DNA of 64,000 nt from Astrocystis sublimbata (lineage: Eukaryota > Ascomycota > Sordariomycetes > Xylariales > Xylariaceae). Where the stretch lies: the NCBI GenBank assembly GCA_022453515.1, contig JAJNNY010000079.1:62001-126000 (forward strand), written 5' to 3'. Shown here one piece after another: positions 2,316 to 46,933 of this stretch. The position numbers and the translations under genes were made by a program. The first letter of the stretch is position 1. Every line of letters starts with the position of its first letter. The notes below the pieces were generated by a model, which was not told where the DNA came from, ran no database searches, and saw only the letters and a list, made by a program, of their open reading frames with translations.

Positions 2316-3250
2316 ACTGGCGAGATCGATATAGCCAGAAACCAAACAAGGAGCTTAGAAAGTAGCCGAGTTGTGAAGAAAATGTGAGATGGGGACAAGC
2401 CTCGGGGTTTGATGAATGGGCTGTCCGCCATTTTACGCAGAGCTGCGAAAGCGACGAATGGAAACTGCACACATGTTGGAGCATGTATTCATATCTCTTG
2501 CGCCATGCGGCAGTGCTCACTGCTCGTCACTGAATAAGCAAGCCAGATCTCGAGGTCCCTGGCCCGCAGTATGAATATTAAATGTGAGTTCCGCCACCTT
2601 ACACCTATCCAGAACTTGCATTTAAATCTTCACCCTCCACACCAGGCCTCGATGCAGTGCGCGCACCATCTTACAAGTATGGAGTTTGGGGGCTGAGCTC
2701 GACCCCTCACTGACAAGCTGCTTTCATTGGTGTCATCGTGTCTTCTCCCGCATTAGTGTATCCTACAATCATACCCAATCTTGTAAACTACCACGCCCAA
2801 GCCGAGCGGAGCAGGAAATTGCATGCCCTGCCCCGAATGTTCTGCCCAAACATATCACTATTGCTGCTAGTCTGGCGACATCGGTCTCACTGCAGCCGAC
2901 AGGAGTCGGTCCGCCTCTCTAAAACCCAAGGCATTCATAAAGACAGTAGATTAATGTCACGGACAAGTAGGCCTGCACAACGTCACTTAGATAACAATTA
3001 CAACTAGGTGACTACCTAGGTAGCAGTCTACTAGCCTTACATTTATAAACAGCTTCTTTTATTCCTTTTATATACTTAAAAACGTGCCTTAGATCGCTAG
3101 AGAACTCAGTGTTCATATACAATCAGAAAAGGTTGCTATTAGATTAATGCGACTTTCATCACTGATTCTTCAATTAGTTCCCCTTCTTCCTCCCTCCCTA
3201 GCAAGCAAGCAGTCCAACCAACCAACCCACCCACCAACAAACCAATCCAA
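2316..3250. other. Intergenic: upstream of the unknown gene, 3' flank of the AA9 LPMO
   Basis: No convincing gene. Small plus-strand frames at 2686-3007 overlap one another, and I see no family signature in them. 3012-3023 is a 12-bp perfect palindrome, CTACCTAGGTAG. The stretch 3030-3160 is AT-rich and contains TTTATA runs. A low-complexity CCAACCAACCCACC-type tract lies at about 3212-3240, just beyond the LPMO stop. Confidence 0.6.
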
Positions 3251-4872
3251 CTACCCCTCCCACACCTCAGGCTCTGGCCCCTTATACTCATCGATATTGA
3301 AGTCCGGGTCATAAGACGAGAACCAAAGATCTAAATAACGATATCATTATTAGAACTTTTATTTATGACTTTGGATAATCACCCATGGCCGGGAATGTTT
3401 AATTAATTATGCAAAACAAGCATACCAGGCTGGCCCTTCGTATAAACCCCCGGGATCTTGGCCATGGGGCCCGGCGTCCCGATTTTGTCTGTATTGGTAT
3501 TGACAATCTCGACGTGCGCGCAGTTGACGTACCATTGCACGCCGCCGCCGCCGGGGCGGATATGTCTGTAAAGAGAAAAAAATCAAGTCAGGATGAAATT
3601 CTTGCTTGGTTCCTCGCTTGTCTGTTTTGGGCCTGGGACTCGTGAATCTAGGTGTCTGTCTGTCTTGTCTTGTCTGTCTGTCTGTTTCAACTCTCAAGCT
3701 TGCCATGCATAATCAATCATGCGATAATCGAGAGCAGATCAGAGCAGAGTAGAGAAGAGCCTTTGCCGCATCGAGGGGCGGGGGAACAAAAGAACTCAAT
3801 AGATAGGGTAAGATAAGATGAATCACTAACTCGTATCTCAGCAAATAATGCCCCGGCGGCGTCGTCTTGGGGATAGTGAAGTTATACTGTTTGCGCCCGC
3901 GTCAGTCAGTCAGTCAACGATATTTATAATTGAAAGCCCCGTTCACCAAGATTCAGATCAGAAATAGACCTACGCTGTCGAGATACAGCGTCCCCCACAC
4001 GGAGTCAACCTCATCATAGTACTTCTCGTTCTCCGGCAGCGAGTAGTCCATCGACTGCTCGGTGCGCCCCGTGACGCTGAGGATCTTGAACCAGTCGCCG
4101 TCGCCGGCGTACGTCTGCAGGTCGTTCGTAGGCGCCTTGGAGAGCCACGCGAAGGCGGGGCCTGCGTGGAACATTGTTGCGCCTTTGTCGCCCTGTGATT
4201 TGATTCATTAATTAGTTAATTAGTTGGTTAGTTAGTTACGCTCACTGTGAGCACGAGGCGAGGAAAGGGGAGGAGAAGGGGGAAAAGGGGGAAAGGGGGG
4301 GGATGGGCGGGGCTTGGATTCGAATCTTGAATTTGGCAAGATGGCTTAGGTAAGGTAAGTAATAAGTTAGTAATTCATTTTCATACCGGCCAACTCCCCC
4401 CTCCAATCCCAAACCCAACCCTATCCCCCGCGTTCACCGTCGCCGTCTTCACCGGGGCGAACGGGAGCGAGGCATTGCGGCCGCAGCGCATGTCCGGATG
4501 GTCGGGGCGTTCGAGGGGGTACGGCATGCCCCAGTCTTCGGGCGAGCCGCGGACTGGTTCCGGGGCGATTTCTCTGAGATAATTAGTAAATTGATTAGCG
4601 AGCGCGTGCGAAAATATCATAAGTAAAGTAGGTAGATAATTATCCACTGGGCAACGGTTTTTGTACCTACCGAACGTATTCGAAAGTATCAGTCCATTTG
4701 CCGTCGAGAATGAGGCGGCCAAACACATCTAGTAATTAGTTCACATGTTAGTGTGATGTGATGTCACATTTGTAATTAAGTATTTGCGATAATAGTTAGG
4801 GGGTGGAAGCGTACAGTGGGCGTTGGACACACCCACGAGGGCGGAACCGATCAAGGCAATTGAATATCTCAT
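3251..4872 (-). CDS. Secreted AA9 lytic polysaccharide monooxygenase (GH61 type), 7 exons
   Basis: Copper enzyme that oxidatively cleaves cellulose or related glucans outside the cell. Exons on the minus strand are 4872-4815, 4728-4671, 4573-4387, 4192-3974, 3886-3831, 3565-3426 and 3330-3251; they join in frame to 265 aa. Residues 1-18 are a signal peptide ending VSNA. His19 becomes the mature N-terminus, as the histidine brace requires, and is encoded right at the end of exon 1. The second copper His is in the FHAGPAFAWLSKAP segment (about residue 110). His194, Gln203 and the axial Tyr205 lie in YEHIRPGGGGVQWYVNC. GDGDWFKI near residue 137 is also typical of AA9. There is no C-terminal CBM1; the protein ends in an acidic Pro/Glu tail. 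All introns are GT-AG. Intron 3 (4193-4386) is the longest and carries a C-rich coding-strand tract. The family call is firm; substrate and regioselectivity cannot be read from sequence. Confidence 0.9.
4267..4302 (+). other. G-run tract with G-quadruplex potential inside AA9 intron 3
   Basis: Four runs of four or more G (4267-4270, 4278-4282, 4287-4291, 4295-4302) separated by A-rich loops of 3-7 bases lie on the strand opposite the gene. The pre-mRNA therefore carries a polypyrimidine-like C tract. Quadruplex formation is inference from the pattern only. Confidence 0.5.
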
Positions 4873-6502
4873 TGTAGGTTATCGTATAGTTCACATCGAT
4901 AAAGAAGTTGCGGTCCTTAGATCTCTCATCTACCTACCTACTTAACTAACATCTTGAACTCCGCCCTAGGCTGGGGTCAATTATATAGGCGCGCTTCCAT
5001 CCCATCTCCTCCTGTCTGGGTCATTCTCTCCCCAGAAAATACATTAGCCGGTAGTTCGTTCGCATGCGTATGTAGATCGGTATCTGGAAGGTCGCATTCC
5101 GCCGTCGCAACAACTCTCCTTCAAGATGGACCGGTCCTCCAATGGAACGAAAATCTATCTTTGAGATTTGACATCGTGGAAAACGGTGTAGACGACGTAG
5201 ACTTAGATCAAAGTGATTGGTCCAGATAAGGCAGAAAGGAAGGTCGTGGGAAAGAAAGCCTGGGTCGACGCCGCGGGAGCGCATCGGGTATTATTCCCCG
5301 ACGTGACGCTATCAAATGACGGGTGTGCTATGCCGGAACTTAGGTTCCGCGGAGCCGTGATAGTTGCGAAACCGTCTGTCCGCATCAGATCCGACCGATT
5401 TACTAGAGGATCTAATTTAGATTCAGATCGGACGTCAGAATCATATTTGATCGTCCGACTTTCTTCACGGAGGGCATAGCTGTAAAATACTGCTTAGAGT
5501 GTTTGCATAAGGTCAACAAAAATAAGACAACATCAAGAAAACACAATAGTTAATTATCATCCATGAATTAGGTAGATACCTAGGTAGGTAGTCAATTAGG
5601 TAGTTCAGTTACACGTACTAGTTGCGCTGCTGTATTAATTATAAGTAAGTAGGTAGGTTAGGTAGGTTAATCATGATAGTAATAACAAGGAGGCCGAAAC
5701 AGTGCTAGCTAGTCATCTGTCCTCCGCTGCCGCCGCCGAATCTGCTTCGTTCGCTCGCTCTGTGGTGGATCTTGTGATGAGTCCTGCTGTGGGTGACTGA
5801 GTGACTGAGTAGGCCTGGGCGACTGAGATGGGTATGTGTTGAGATGACTCAAGAGATGAGATGAGATGGGATGAGTTCGGGAGAACCTTAGGCAAGGCAA
5901 GGTGAGGCAAAGTGAGGTAGATGATATTAATTATTCGCGCCCAGCGTTCGTCTTCGGATACATTCCTCATGCATCCTTCACGGGGCCCATACCAATCAAT
6001 ACACATCGACCCCATCTCCAATTGCCATATCCGTCCCATTTCTGTCGGTCCTTTTCCAGTTCGCCCGCAAGTCGCCAGTGCGTAGTGCACAAAGAGCCAG
6101 ATTCAGCAACGGCACGCGCACGTCGGTCACGAAGAGAGCAACGCATCATTCCTTGTTCGGCGACCCTTCCTTCTCCAGAAATTTAGTTCTCTCCTCATCA
6201 TCTGTCCGTTTCGAGGCGGCATCCAGCATCTAGCAGAGTCGTCAAGTAGGTGGTTGGGTTGGTAGCGCAAAGATGCATGTATCGTATGCAGGACGCTATG
6301 TCATGCGTTCAGGCGTAAGGGTATCAATCGTGTGAAAGTAGGGAGCATCGTTCGACAAGGCGAAGGTGACCGGTACTAGCGTAAATGTGTGTGTATGGAA
6401 ATGGGGTTCTAGAATGCCCATGACGCGAGGATGGGTAGCTGATCGATTCCGTCGAACTGTTGTCCGTCTAAAGTCGTGCAGGTAAAATTTCAAGGGGGAA
6501 CA
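4873..6502. other. Intergenic: AA9 promoter side and 3' flank of the Arf6-like gene
   Basis: No gene supported. The frames at 4954-5479 and 5713-6186 overlap each other on both strands and lack family features. Bases 5560-5680 are dense in TAGGTA/GTAGGT units, including a perfect TACCTAGGTA palindrome at 5577-5586. The segment 5840-5880 is a degenerate GAGATGAGATG tract. Confidence 0.6.
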
Positions 6503-40402: not shown

Positions 40403-41556
40403 GATGAAATAGATGCCTAAGTAGGCAGGCCAAAGGCGACGATTGTCAAAACCTGCTATTGGAGCATGAAGTGGTGATGGTGATGGTGATGTTCAGGTGT
40501 AAGTGTCGTGGAGCTAGGTACCTGCAGCCGCTAAAGAGGATCATGGAGTCAATTACGTTCCTGTCATCGAGGGGCCTGGGGCCTGTATGCGGAGAGTCCC
40601 ACTCCGTGAACCGAAGCTAATACAGGTATGGCTTAGTAACAGGTACCAAATCCCCGGAGTCGATTGGGGAAATCTGAGGAAACAGGCGATGTTTTTACCT
40701 AATCACGGACTGGAGTTCTCTGGTTGCATGATCATGCTATGTAGGACCGTGCTGTAACCGTAATAATGTTAAGTGTTTTTGTACCAGTGTGAGGGAATAT
40801 AACAGTTATCACGTAGCCAAGTAGAATAATAGGGGTTAGGTGTTAATTCTATTGATTACTGGGCTATATTTCATACATATAAAACTTAGATATTAAAGCT
40901 AAATGTTAAATGTTAGTATTATATGTGTAGGTGATTTCGACCAGTCTTGTGTACATATATAGTTATAACAATATAGTTAAGAATGATTTATTCTAGTGTA
41001 TTTCTTTTTCGCACTCATTGTGCACTCTGCTCCCAAATACGTCTTTACGGAATCGAAGTTTGTATTTAGAATATCCTGCCGGGGTTTTAGAGTACGCGAC
41101 AGCTATTGTAATTGTTTTTGAGTACATCCTCCTGTTGGGGTGTTGCAATAGTACCTAATACGTTTACAATGCGATCGGTTAGACGCCTTTTACCAGCAAT
41201 CTGCGCTAAACCGGCGACGCCGAGTTCAGCTTCTCACAACTATCAATCAGAGGCCAAAGCTGCTGCGATGAAGTTGTGAAGAGCAGCAGTAAATAATTTG
41301 ACTAAGCATTTGATTTATAGGAAAATAATAGATGACATCTCGAATACCCGGCCTATGTGCTGGCCTTGCATGTGTGTAGGGGATCCAATCCTCCGTCTCT
41401 GTTCCAGTCAAAAGTGGGTTGCCGAAGAGCCTCTCCCCAAAGTCTGGGCCGACCGGTTCCACTTGGTAGGTTACCAAGGAGGCGGGCTCTTGTCTGCTCC
41501 ACCATCTCCAACCTCTGTGTGAGGTGTCGATATCCAGGATTAGGTAAGAAGCGATT
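40403..41556. other. AT-rich intergenic stretch 3' of the effector gene
   Basis: No gene seen. 40770-41000 is conspicuously TpA-rich (many TATA/TTAATA/ATATAT words) and contains the left copy of a 95-bp direct repeat (40771-40865). 41300-41560 overlaps the 3' flank of the effector. Confidence 0.6.
40771..40865. repeat. Left copy of a 95-bp direct repeat flanking the effector gene
   Basis: Aligns without gaps to 42588-42682, identical at roughly four-fifths of positions (both start AAGTG, both end CTGGGCT). Several differences are C-to-T before A (GCACC versus GTACC; GTCAATT versus GTTAATT), the RIP mutation type. The repeat could be a remnant of a mobile element; no terminal structure is evident. 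Confidence 0.75.
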
Positions 41557-42471
41557 TCATCCAGACTGGCCCGAACGATTATGACCTTGTCCCCCGAATT
41601 GCATCCCCGAAAAGTTGCCCCTACCCCCATTGATTGATCCAGTCTGGAAGCCTTGATTGTTGGTCCCAAATGTGACCGTTATCGAGTCACGCTGTTTTGC
41701 TTCAGCATATTCTTTCTGTTCTTCATTCTTGGATTCCAACCTGCGGAGTAAATCTAGTGACAACTTCATTGCCTCCCGTTCTTCCGGTGGAACCTGCCTT
41801 GGGCCTTCATCAGGTACACCCTCAATAGTATGAGAAGGCCCGCTTCTGATATCCAGACCCTCAACTTCCTTAGTCAGAGTTGTGAGCTGTTGGTCGGTCA
41901 CCGTGATGAAGTGGGAGATAGTGGCCATATTTTTCGATACCGAAGTCCTGATTTCCTCCGTGATTTGGCGGTGTTGAATGGAGTTTTGCCTGTTATCGCG
42001 ATGTTTAGAGAAAATCCTGTTTTCAGACTGGTAACAAACATACAGTGTGGCAGTGCTCGCTACCAAGCTCAGCGACACTTGATAGTGATGCAGCTAATCT
42101 GACATGGACTTCGTCCGCATCTCCTTGAGGCCAAGGTTCGTGCGGTCGAGAGCACTTAATTTACCGTTATTGGAGTTTCTCGTCCAACCCTGGAGATCCT
42201 CCCTGAACTTCCTACATGATTCCTTGCAAGTTGACGTGATTGTCTGGCACGAGTCTACTATTTCGGTGCCAAGTGCTTCCCATTCCGATTGCGGTATTGC
42301 TTGCAGTGATTTTAGGGCCCTATCTATCATGCTGAGGTTCGCTTGAAGGCCATGGAAAGTGTTTGGAGCCTCGGAGATATTCCGGATATCATCTGACAGC
42401 ACGCTTATCCAATGGAGAGTTGGGGCAGTGATACCGAAGATGTTGGCGACAACGCCTAATGTGTCCGCCAT
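41557..42471 (-). pseudogene. Amyloid-signalling effector (HeLo/SesA-like N-domain, C-terminal sigma-like motif), broken by an in-frame TAG
   Basis: Effector partner of the adjacent NB-ARC-TPR receptor. Frame from ATG 42471 runs to TGA at 41557-41559. It is interrupted by one TAG at 42096-42094 (codon 126). A 54-bp intron (42043-41990, GTATGT...ACAG) lies after ...STATL and joins to QNSIQHRQITEEI. Read past the stop, the product would be about 268 residues. Residues 1-150 (MADTLGVVANIFGI, PNTFHGLQANLSMIDRALKS, DSCQTITSTCKESCRKFREDL) resemble the helical HeLo-like/SesA-type domain at the N-termini of fungal STAND proteins and their effectors. A coiled middle (PPEEREAMKLSLDLLRRLE) precedes VTFGTNNQGFQTGSINGG, the amyloid-type motif. 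As written, translation ends before the motif, giving 125 aa. Family memory places Gln (CAG) at the stop position (SMSDQL). Confidence 0.8.
41623..41685 (-). other. C-terminal amyloid-signalling motif of the effector
   Basis: Encodes ITVTFGTNNQGFQTGSINGG. The core FGxNNxGFQxGxxNG matches the receptor's N-terminal motif at 43017-43076. Such paired Asn/Gly/Gln-rich motifs template one another in fungal NLR/effector pairs (sigma class in the literature). Further Gly-rich FGG units follow it. Confidence 0.75.
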
Positions 42472-43010
42472 ATTGTTTCAGGTGGATTCGAGGAATGGCA
42501 CACTTTGCGTCAGTCGTGCGAGGTAGGTAAGGAAAATCAAACGTAAGGACACAGAAGAGGAAGACAGCAGAGCTTGCTGCTACTATCAAGTGCTTTTGCA
42601 CCAGAGTGAAGGAATATAGCAGTAGCCAAGTAGCTAAGTAGAATAGTAGGGGTTACGTGTCAATTCTATTCAATCCTGGGCTCTTCCATTCAGTGGGAGC
42701 CGCCCAGCCCTTATATACACAGATCTCGTAGCCCAAACAGCCCCCTACAGGGGAGCCCCTAGGCCATGGTGAGGCTCATGCTACCTTGACACCTGACAGC
42801 TACTCACTAGGCAGCATTCTCAGCAGTAGCTAACGTTGCATTCTCCATTCAGCTGAGCCGTGAGGGGTGACCATAGACTAGGAACGACTCGGACAGTGGT
42901 ATTTTATGTGTGCTTTTGCTTTCTGTTTCCCATCTCTATTTGTCACCGCGTTCCTATTATTCAACAAACATATCCTCTTCCTAAATCAACCCATCACGGC
43001 GGCCCCAACA
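42472..43010. promoter_or_regulatory. Shared divergent promoter of the effector and NB-ARC-TPR receptor
   Basis: The two ATGs face away from one another across 539 bp, so one region must drive both genes. It contains the right copy of the 95-bp repeat (42588-42682) and a CCCTTATATACACAGA stretch (42709-42724) that could serve as a TATA element on either side. No factor site identified. Confidence 0.55.
42588..42682. repeat. Right copy of the 95-bp direct repeat, inside the shared promoter
   Basis: Counterpart of 40771-40865 in the same orientation, 1.8 kb away. The two copies bracket the whole effector gene. This copy keeps the C residues where the other has T in several CpA contexts. Confidence 0.75.
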
Positions 43011-45679
43011 ATGGCTTTCTCTTTTGGAGATAACAATTACGGGTTTCAGGCGGGGCAAAACAATGGATTAATCTTCCCTACAGTGCATTTACCTCCAGGT
43101 ATGATGTGTCACGGCGATATCCCAGACTTTCCGAAATGTAGTTTACCATCGACATCAAGCAATCCACTAACCTAGAGCTCTCAATAGATCCACCCGAAAC
43201 ACCACCACTTCCGACAGCTTTCATTCCATTCATGCGCGATACTCATTTCGTCGAACGTAAGAGCCTCCTCGATCAGATACAGCAAGCATGCCCAGCCCCG
43301 CCCTCTCGTGTAGCAATTGTAGGGTTAGGGGGTGTTGGCAAGTCGCAACTGGCTATCGAACACGTGTATAGAATGCAAGATACCTTTGCACAGCAAGGAA
43401 AAGATATCTGGGTGTTTTGGGTGCATGCCAGTACGCGAGAGCGCTTCCAACAAAGTTTCGAAGAGATTGCAGACTTAGTCAAGATCAAGGGTCGCCATCA
43501 GCGCAATACGGACATTTCACAGCTCGTCTATCGATGGTTATGTAACCAGCACCATGGTCAGTGGTTGATGATCCTGGATAGTGCCGATGATGCCGATATC
43601 TTCTTCAAGGAAAGTCAAAATGAGACACGAGAAGGGGCTGCTGAAGAAACATTCGTTGGCCCCAAGGCAAAGCCATTGGTGAAATACTTGCCGTCAAGTA
43701 CAAACGGGTCCATCATTATTACAACGAGAAACAGAGACGTAGGGATCGGCCTTACAGATCACCACAGCAATATTGTCGAAGTTGGTCCGATGAACCAAGC
43801 TGAAGCCCTCGAGCTTCTAGAGACAAAACTAGGCCAGCACTACGACGAGGTCAGTGGACAGGAGCTTGTTGAGGCTCTTGGGCATTTACCTTTGGCTATC
43901 AATCAAGCTGCGGCCTATATATATCAAACCACGCCGCTTACTTCAGTGAAGCTTTATCTACAAGAGATGCGGCGATTTGAACAAAAGGTCCAGGATGAAA
44001 TGCCGCCTGCTTCAGAAGGAACCTACCCGAAAGACTTTGAACATCGTGAACGAAAACAGTGGCATCATCTATCTCAAGAAATTCGCAATTCTCGTCGTGA
44101 TTGGGACGCCCCAAAATCAGTCATTGCGTCGTTTCGGATAAGCTTTGAACATATTCGTTCTCAAAACCTATCGACAGTACACACACTATCGAGAATGGCC
44201 TATTTTGATCACCAAAAGATTCAGCGCTCGTTGGTCCACCCATTACCTCCAATCGTCGGATCTGAACCTCAACGTCAACGTCACCCGGATGCACTTGTTC
44301 GCACACTCTCGAAGATATCCTATCTCGACAACCAGAATGTTCATTGCTCGTCGGTCCACCTATTACCTTCGATAATTGGATCTGAAGCTCAAGATCACCC
44401 GAATAACATCTTTGTCTCTAATGACTTCTACGACCAGTGCTTCGAAAAAGACATCGCAACACTTCGAAGGTATTCCTTGATCAGTGTACACGAGACTGAT
44501 GGCACATTTAATATTCACAGGCTCGTTCAAGTTTCACTTAGGTGGTGGCTAAACACCTTCCAAACAACCGGAAAGGGTATCCTGGAATGGTCTTTTGATC
44601 GACTGGTTCCAGCGTTTCCGTTCCCTTCTCCGTCAACCGTGCCGGTATGTCGCGAGATGCTTCCGCATCTCCCCATACTAGTGCACTTCTTTGGATATCA
44701 ACCTGAAGAATTAAAGAAATCCATGGCGAGAAGTTATGCGTTTCTAACATATAAAGTCGGGTTTCTTAAGCTCTATAATGGCGATTTTTTGGATGCAATA
44801 AGGATCTTTACCGCAACACTGAAGTCAGAGTTAAGCTTTGGAAGCTCAGGATCAGCAGAACTCTCCCTATCAGCCCTCGCTTCGGCTCACGAGGCAATGG
44901 GCGACTTTATTTCTGCTGAACATTGCCTCAAGGCCGCATTGTCTAATATGCAAGAGTTGGACGAAGGGTCTGATAACTCTGAAACAATAAAGATGCGAAT
45001 GGAACTAGCAAGAATATATGGACATCAAGATCATTTGGACAAGGCCAATGAGGCTTTCATCGAAACGATAGAGAGGGCGAAAATTTCTCTAGGTCCAGAA
45101 CATAAGGTTACCCTTAAGGTCATGGAGGCAGTACGCGACAGTTATATTAAGCAAGCCCGATGGCAGGAAGCCGAATCGCTCCACCTGGATATTCTACGTA
45201 CGATTGACAACATACAGGATCTTGAAGATTCGGAAAACATTTCCAGGGATATTGAGCTGGCTGTCATATACACTGGTCAAAACAATTGGGAAAAAGCTGA
45301 GTTGTTGCTTACCCAGTTAGTTCAAAAGGTGCAGAATTTGCCGGAGCCGGGGTTAGGGCCAAGGGACCAGAATCCAACTCAAGTCATGCATCGCATCGCT
45401 AATGTTTATGCAAGTCGCGGGCAGTATCAGAAGGCCGAGTCGTTGCTACTAGATCGCTTGGGAAGGCGAGCACAGCGGAATGGTCCGTACGATGAATTCA
45501 CATTTTTGTTGATGGCAGATCTGGCGTCGTACCAGAAAGAACTCAAAAATTGGTCAGGTGCTGAAATGCTACTTTTGGAAGCATTAAAAAGATCGCATCG
45601 CGTGCTCGGTGGTACCAATCGTGTCACAGTTGAGCTTTGGTCTATCGTAGGTCGACTATACAGCAGCCAGGGTCGATAG
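43011..45679 (+). CDS. NB-ARC-TPR (NLR-like) receptor with N-terminal amyloid motif; truncated by TAG at 45677-45679
   Basis: STAND receptor expected to oligomerise and trigger its effector by amyloid templating. Exon 1 is 43011-43098 and exon 2 begins at 43188 (intron GTATGA...ATAG); 859 aa as written. Residues 4-22 carry FSFGDNNYGFQAGQNNGLIF, matching the effector's tail. NB-ARC landmarks are the P-loop GLGGVGKSQLA (residues 75-85), Walker B WLMILDSADDAD (155-166), IIITTRNRDV (205-214) and GHLPLAINQAA (261-271). The winged-helix end is FNIHRLVQVSLRWWL, where many NLRs have MHD. A degenerate duplication sits just before it. TPR-like repeats follow from about residue 560 (ARWQEAESL, NNWEKAELL, GQYQKAESL, KNWSGAEML). 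The stop falls in the next repeat at the aromatic position (QGR-stop-EKAKQ). The remaining 154 codons continue in frame. Confidence 0.9.
43017..43076 (+). other. N-terminal amyloid-signalling motif of the NLR
   Basis: Encoded almost entirely by the small first exon. The core FGDNNYGFQAGQNNG is the counterpart of FGTNNQGFQTGSINGG in the divergently transcribed effector. Confidence 0.8.
44180..44405 (+). repeat. Degenerate internal duplication in the NLR gene
   Basis: Two adjacent ~37-residue blocks resemble each other: LSRMAYFDHQKIQRSLVH then PLPPIVGSE, and LSKISYLDNQNVHCSSVH then LLPSIIGSE. The nucleotide copies begin about 117 bp apart. Related proteins normally have one such helix-FDRQG-type block between the NB-ARC and winged-helix parts. 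Confidence 0.75.
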
Positions 45680-46141
45680 GAGAAGGCCAAACAATACTTT
45701 ACACAAACTGTTTATTTGATGACCCGCACGTTAGGGTCATCGAACTACAGAACTTTAAAGAGCATGTATGAGTTGGCATGTACTTGGAAGCACCTGGGCC
45801 GATTGAAAAAGGCAGTTCGGTTGATGGAAAAGTATGTCAGGGGGTTAACCGGACTTTTAGGGAATGTGACTCTGGACTTACAGGAGGCACTATTCACATT
45901 GGCTGAGTGGCGTGCTGAAAAGTTCCAGGTCGACAAGAAACGTGTGCAAGTGGTGATTGCAAACAGTGCATCACCGCTCGCCACCGAGAACCGATCCTAT
46001 CGCCAATTTCGATCAAGAATACGTCGCTATCGCCGTCGCCGTTATTATAAGCTGTACGCTAATAACTGGGCCACAATTCGTATTCGAACAGACCTGCCAA
46101 GTCTGACGGATCGCCTGGAAGTCCTGTCATTGGACACTTGA
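45680..46141 (+). pseudogene. C-terminal TPR remainder of the NLR, cut off by the premature stop
   Basis: Same frame as the NLR exon and directly contiguous with it. It completes the interrupted TPR (EKAKQYFTQTVYLMTRTLG), adds another (KSMYELACTWKHLGRLKKAV), and ends in a basic Arg-rich tail to TGA at 46139-46141. With a sense codon at 45677-45679 the intact protein would be 1013 residues. Confidence 0.8.
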
Positions 46142-46933
46142 TGAAGCTTGAGAAGAATATTTGCCTTCTTCCACGTTATTATTCATAGTTACTCATAGGT
46201 TTTTGCCAGCGATTCCCCAGCAAATTGTATGAGATATAGGCTCGATAGCTCATTGACCCCAGCAATTCATGCTTCACTCCATCTACTGAAATACTCTTAT
46301 ATGAATTAATGAGTAATAATTACCTTCTTTTTGGAAATGGCTTGGAACTCATAGCAGCTATCAACCAACAGATGCTCACACGGTCACCCGGAGCCGTCTC
46401 ATGTTGGGCGAACTGGATTGTCAAAGTATAGACTCCCATGAAATCCATGTCGCATACCAAGGTATTGCCTACATATTTGCACACCAGCGGAACACGCCAT
46501 CGACCTCGAGTAGATAACAGCACCACCAGACATCGCATTTTAGTGATATTACCAATCCATTGTGCGGGTGCTTAGGCACTAGATAAAGTCGTAGTATAAA
46601 CACCGGCGCTTCACGTGCGTATACAATAGTCCTGACTCATTCCGCCGGCAAGTCACAGAACTTGGAAGTCACTAAGAGCACGCAGTTCAAGTACTCGTTC
46701 TGCAGATGTTCAACCACTCTCGAGTCCCCTGGTATGTTCATGTGTGAGAATAGCTCCAACTTTACCCACATCAAGAGCTCACCCGTATCATTGTTGTACA
46801 GTGATATCGGACGATGCCAACGTTTGTTTGACTTGAAGACCGAGCGTTCTACAGTCGCTCTCGTTCGGGCATTTGACGTCAGGATGTGCCCAGCCAACGC
46901 ATATGACGCTCACATCATATACCCCTATATTCT
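46142..46933. other. Intergenic 3' of the NLR; possible minus-strand coding relic
   Basis: Convergent 3' ends. A minus-strand frame in 46637-46870 reads protein-like (RPISLYNNDTGELLMWVKLE, VVEHLQNEYLNCVLL) but has no ATG at a plausible place and no recognised family. A second short minus frame is at 46320-46538. They may be scraps of a decayed gene. Confidence 0.35.

Follow-up and report, generated by a model that had tools for sequence, protein, structure and literature searches.

A divergent pair of receptor and effector genes

The window, i.e. the whole stretch of 64,000 nucleotides of DNA that was analysed, represents positions 62001-126000 of contig C167 of the 42.6-Mb genome of Astrocystis sublimbata (Xylariaceae). 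It contains two divergently oriented genes, the start codons of which (ATG at minus-strand position 42471 and plus-strand position 43011) are separated by 539 bp, in agreement with a preliminary description of this DNA. The minus-strand gene, specifying a HeLo-like protein (the effector), ends in FGTNNQGFQTGSINGG, and the plus-strand gene, specifying an NB-ARC/TPR protein (the receptor), begins with FGDNNYGFQAGQNNG, both motifs being present in the sequence exactly as previously quoted. The NB-ARC domain and TPRs that had been placed behind the receptor motif were retrieved at 34.2 bits (over the cut-off) and 69 bits (TPR_12), respectively; as regards the nucleotide-binding domain, NACHT reached 25.1 bits, which is under its cut-off of 26.7. 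A genome search with PF00931 returned 12 matches, the window receptor not being among them, even though the protein scan detects its NB-ARC domain.

Table 1 Features of the receptor/effector pair, with positions given relative to the window.
Feature	Position	Strand	Basis
HELLP-type effector gene: PF17111 N-domain, linker and C-terminal PP motif	41557..42471	-	286 codons after intron removal, one in-frame TAG
Effector PP motif TFGTNNQGFQTGSING, C-terminal	41626..41673	-	PP HMM 18.9 bits; pair score 55
Predicted effector intron, 54 nt, GTATGT...AACAG, at ORF nt 429	41990..42043	-	gene model
Effector in-frame TAG, codon 126 of 286, upstream of the PP motif	42094..42096	-	PF17111 match spans the site
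Receptor exon 1 MAFSFGDNNYGFQAGQNNGLIFPTVHLPP, N-terminal PP motif	43011..43098	+	PF17046 23.9 bits (cut-off 23.2); PP HMM 43.6 bits
Receptor leader intron, donor GTATGA, starting at ORF nt 89	43099..43175	+	gene model
PNT1-type receptor body (NB-ARC, TPRs), without a stop before the TAG	43176..45676	+	Pfam, ORF, gene model
Receptor in-frame TAG, codon 864 of 1017, within the TPR array	45677..45679	+	gene model, homologue alignment
Post-stop frame with TPR homology, to the next stop	45680..46141	+	ORF, homologue alignment

Comparison of the effector N-domain with the HeLo, SesA and PF17111 families, which had been suggested as a check, identified PF17111, which scored 31.8 bits against the first uninterrupted piece of the gene and 43.7 bits across residues 2-184 after excision of the intron and with X in place of the stop; SesA scored 20.7 bits, under its cut-off of 26.3. 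Comparison of the effector with solved structures returned nothing relevant (best of 5 at E 0.074). The structure model of residues 1-125, obtained with single-sequence input, was poor (pLDDT 60.1), and none of the 47 matches listed in the corresponding structure search was at E <= 0.001.

The open reading frame from position 43232 exhibits 100% identity over 99% of its length to A. sublimbata F4808DRAFT_475484 (referred to as P0001). Two acceptors are possible for the receptor leader intron, and the public model P0001, which is without four further residues, fits an acceptor located 12 nt downstream. Both introns of Table 1 and the in-frame TAG of either gene were absent from the preliminary description. 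Five flanking frames were scanned, specifying a sugar transporter and an Asp/Glu racemase-like protein on one side and an NmrA-like protein on the other, the remaining two being without any match.

In-frame stops and the state of this copy

The effector TAG precedes the PP motif, and therefore the effector as written cannot receive a signal. The PF17111 match is continuous across this stop, just as TPR homology runs across the stop of the receptor. Considering that both genes carry a TAG, and that homology runs through both sites, this copy is read as decayed or null: the window locus is most probably a signalosome of the HELLP/PNT1 kind (see below) that is represented here by a decayed copy or a null allele.

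The alternative, according to which the same HELLP/PNT1 module is functional and the TAGs represent assembly errors or are spliced out of the transcripts, is considered unlikely. It would be in line with the presence of a single stop per gene before the natural end of the frame, and with an ordinary RIP-type index over the pair (TA/AT of 0.55-0.94 in 1-kb windows starting at 41001-46501, with a window mean of 0.76 and a value of 1.11 at start 40501); the absence of an elevated index across the two genes also led to RIP being rejected as source of the stops. With regard to the receptor, P0001 sidesteps the TAG by omitting positions 45647-45883, a 237-nt GT-AG excision which keeps the frame and avoids the stop. 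However, the 79 residues thus omitted align with TPRs (perhaps of a different repeat) in all nine of the nine Xylaria homologues compared, and the excision of TPR-coding sequence in P0001 is likely to be an annotation artefact. As regards the effector, 18 frame-preserving GT-AG excisions (40-160 nt) that remove the TAG are possible on paper; a stop hidden in an intron was nevertheless rejected, since the stop lies within the continuous PF17111 match and each of these excisions cuts domain sequence, as judged by eye. Moreover, independent errors that stop both partner genes are unlikely.

A homologue search with the effector, covering a length range of 157-500 aa, retrieved none of 684 candidates at E <= 0.001, neither HELLP-like proteins nor any others from other species. 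This implies that no annotated effector protein of 157-500 aa was seen, and an annotated effector shorter than approximately 157 aa would escape such a search, so that the failure to find an annotated effector is weakened as evidence for decay. If both stops are real, the receptor and its executioner have decayed together, and the locus would allow the joint persistence or loss of such pairs in populations to be tested in nature. As only one strain is represented, a null allele in it would not imply that the pathway is absent from the species.

Motif class and a second pair in the same genome

The PP signature has been reported as FxGx(x)NxGLQLxGxNxGxL and the sigma motif as repeats of GxGxQFNxx and GGTQNINT (Daskalov 2012, excerpts of PMC3321046), and PF17046, named ‘Ses_B’, is referred to in the excerpted text of a 2025 paper (PMC12261475) as ‘PP (misnamed SesB)’. 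The window motifs share the core NxGxQxGxN, which fits the PP signature as printed. Because of this fit, and because PF17046 is in print a PP model, the motif class is, as judged from its sequence, PP (RHIM-related) and not sigma, the class that had been put forward as an analogue.

Profiling of both ends with motif models, also suggested earlier, was successful in part: PF17046 recognised the receptor leader, the effector tail was without a PP match in Pfam, and a purpose-built PP HMM matched both ends. Pfam’s miss of the effector tail is weak evidence, since a match to PF17046 at E <= 0.001 is also absent from P0062, a PNT1-like receptor of Podospora pseudocomata, the leader of which starts like that of Podospora anserina PNT1 (the latter being translated from a primer printed in the excerpted text of PMC7885112). 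The PP HMM was derived from 23 NLR N-termini, with exclusion of the window receptor, hand-picked from 54 PP-like leaders found among 120 listed receptor homologues of 1872 matches, and was used to scan 6966 six-frame pieces (332,857 aa) from the window and 40 overlapping loci. The training NLRs being homologous to the window receptor, it is the effector tail that represents the informative test. This tail scored 18.9 bits (i-E 3.7e-4), or 20.3 bits when scored alone, as compared to 43.6 bits for the receptor leader, 22.0 bits for the PNT1-like P. pseudocomata leaders P0062 and P0117, and no more than 7.4 bits (E 1.5) for any other scanned piece. A comparison of the PP profile with solved structures retrieved nothing relevant, the one match (Phi92_gp130) being at E 0.2. 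Taken with the PF17111 match and the PF17046 match, these scores bear out the earlier claim of an NLR/effector pair with matching amyloid-type motifs.

Two further readings of these ends are highly improbable. A sigma-class module of the Nectria ses type could be suspected from the name Ses_B of PF17046 and from the weak SesA match in the effector, though the sigma repeats, in the form printed in the excerpts, are absent from both ends by eye, no sigma-named Pfam family is among the matches, and Ses_B is a misnomer for PP according to the excerpted 2025 text. A chance or compositional likeness of two functionally unlinked ends, which share a high content of G, N and Q, is contradicted by composition-matched shuffles, of which 0 of 20,000 reached the HMM score of the effector tail (18.9 bits, with a top shuffle of 14.2) and 0 of 5000 the pair score, and by the HeLo-like gene being located where a partner is expected.

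Genome queries with the receptor leader, the effector tail and a Xylaria leader retrieved no PP copies other than those of the window locus; one of these queries also met a second receptor (on contig C174, see below), outside its motif. PF17046 gave three matches across the whole genome, of which one, the window receptor, is over the cut-off, and the two weak ones score at most 7.4 bits by the PP HMM; PF17108 (HRAM type) gave two sub-threshold matches. Classification by pattern of the leaders of the 120 listed receptor homologues yielded 54 PP-like, 13 VHxGN-like and 53 that are neither. The VHxGN-type leaders belong to P0003-P0007, P0009, P0014, P0023, P0057, P0060, P0080, P0095 and P0097, nine of these 13 being named Xylaria. 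PF17108 is present in the precomputed lists for two of the 13 (P0023 and P0097) and absent for the other 11, and a direct scan of the P0057 leader placed PF17108 over and PF11558 below the cut-off. On sequence grounds, this suggests that near relatives of the receptor swap PP for an HRAM-type motif.

A second divergent HeLo-like/NB-ARC-TPR pair is present at locus L032 (G000:C174:80500-88500), with its effector at 2732-2007 on the minus strand, receptor exon 1 at 3208-3310 on the plus strand, and 475 bp between the start codons. Its effector matches PF17111 at 53.2 bits, its receptor exhibits 41% identity to the window receptor (query residues 2-481), and both frames are open if a 73-nt leader intron is assumed in the receptor. 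The two genes share a motif (receptor QQFGNASVTNGSQSFQG, effector QTFGTLSAQNNSRGFQG) with the pattern QxFGxxSxxNxSxxFQG, which fits none of the four patterns PP, sigma, PUASM and GDQN in the form given in the excerpted literature. Pfam placed no family on the receptor leader and its effector matches all stop before the tail motif, the PP HMM scored at most 1.2 bits on this pair, and the effector tail, used as a genome query, matched only itself. The motif possibly represents a new amyloid motif class or a divergent sigma.

Local alignment of the matched ends gave a score of 55 for the window receptor and effector (0/5000 shuffles) and of 48 for those on C174 (1/5000). The crossed combinations gave 23 for the window receptor with the C174 effector (1731/5000) and 37 for the C174 receptor with the window effector (250/5000), so that each effector tail aligns best with its own receptor (in two of two pairs, these being paralogous pairs from one genome). 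The C174 pair thus supports, at the level of sequence, co-variation of the motif inside pairs, though the crossed score of 37 is not negligible and counts against this. It is conceivable, if on balance doubtful, that two amyloid death pathways of like layout exist in the genome, insulated from each other, namely the PP pair, the function of which is lost, and the open C174 pair with a further motif family and a HeLo-like effector.

Elsewhere in the genome, at locus L033 (G000:C135), an NB-ARC gene (2625-5392, minus strand) carries an apparent nucleoside-phosphorylase-type N-domain ahead of the NB-ARC (translation judged by eye), as in an all-in-one receptor. A HeLo-like match on C135 was rejected as a member of a pair, being located approximately 4 kb from an NB-ARC gene which seemingly has its own N-terminal domain.

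Proposed mechanism and comparison with known signalosomes

By analogy with characterised signalosomes, the NB-ARC/TPR receptor would sense a cue by means of its TPRs and oligomerise, upon which its N-terminal PP motif would fold as an amyloid. This amyloid would serve as a template for the C-terminal PP motif of the HeLo-like effector, and the effector would then move to the membrane and kill the cell. In the excerpted literature from which these steps are taken, receptor oligomerisation is proposed, and amyloid templating is described, as are relocation to the region of the membrane and death. We infer that amyloid templating and killing may have been carried out by the window pair before the stops arose. 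The earlier designation of the locus as a cell-death module thus holds for the family and probably fails for the window copy, given the in-frame stop in each gene.

As described in the excerpts of PMC3321046, the HET-S/NWD2 system of P. anserina resembles the window locus in that the N-terminal motif of a receptor templates the C-terminal motif of its neighbour. It differs in possessing a HeLo domain, a NACHT/WD receptor and an HRAM motif, none of which was found at the window locus, where the HRAM models PF11558 and PF17108 gave no match on either end and the receptor repeats are TPRs. The ses locus of Nectria haematococca (sigma; same excerpts) likewise has a motif common to a STAND protein and neighbouring effectors, in combination with another motif pattern and another receptor type. 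Closer to the window locus is CgHELLP/CgSBP/CgPNT1 of Chaetomium globosum (excerpts of PMC7885112 and PMC5485727), with which it has in common the PP class, an NB-ARC/TPR receptor and a HeLo-like effector, whereas the scan of five flanking frames did not reveal the third partner, a lipase (SBP).

In P. anserina, HELLP (HeLo-like, with a C-terminal PP motif) adjoins PNT1 (PP-NB-ARC-TPR), the genes being Pa_5_8070/Pa_5_8060, and PNT1(1-31) forms a prion that activates HELLP (excerpted text of PMC7885112). The PP motif is RHIM-related, and the HELLP domain is related to the four-helix domain of MLKL (excerpts of PMC7885112, PMC5485727 and PMC12881547). In the excerpted text of PMC7885112, HELLP has a single intron of 47 bp (ORF nt 429-475) and PNT1 a single intron (nt 95-148). 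The window locus differs from this system by an in-frame TAG in both frames and by a receptor intron that starts at nt 89 instead of 95. It shares with it, as described there, the two-gene cluster, PP at the receptor N-terminus and at the effector C-terminus, NB-ARC and TPRs, a HeLo-like effector, one short receptor leader intron and the placement of the effector intron (ORF nt 429). What the sequence of the locus shows directly is its domains, a PP motif in either gene that matches that of its partner, the divergent orientation and this shared position of the effector intron.

Judged from its sequence, the window locus is a further member of the HELLP/PNT1 kind of PP signalosome. The preliminary description had regarded the NB-ARC/TPR receptor with its HeLo-like partner as a useful variant, a combination which is the architecture described in the excerpts of PMC7885112. 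Since receptor, effector, motif, layout and effector intron position all match HELLP/PNT1 as described there, the architecture is the published form and no variant, and holds nothing new. With its motif class corrected, a PP (RHIM-related) signalosome is now placed in a member of the Xylariaceae.
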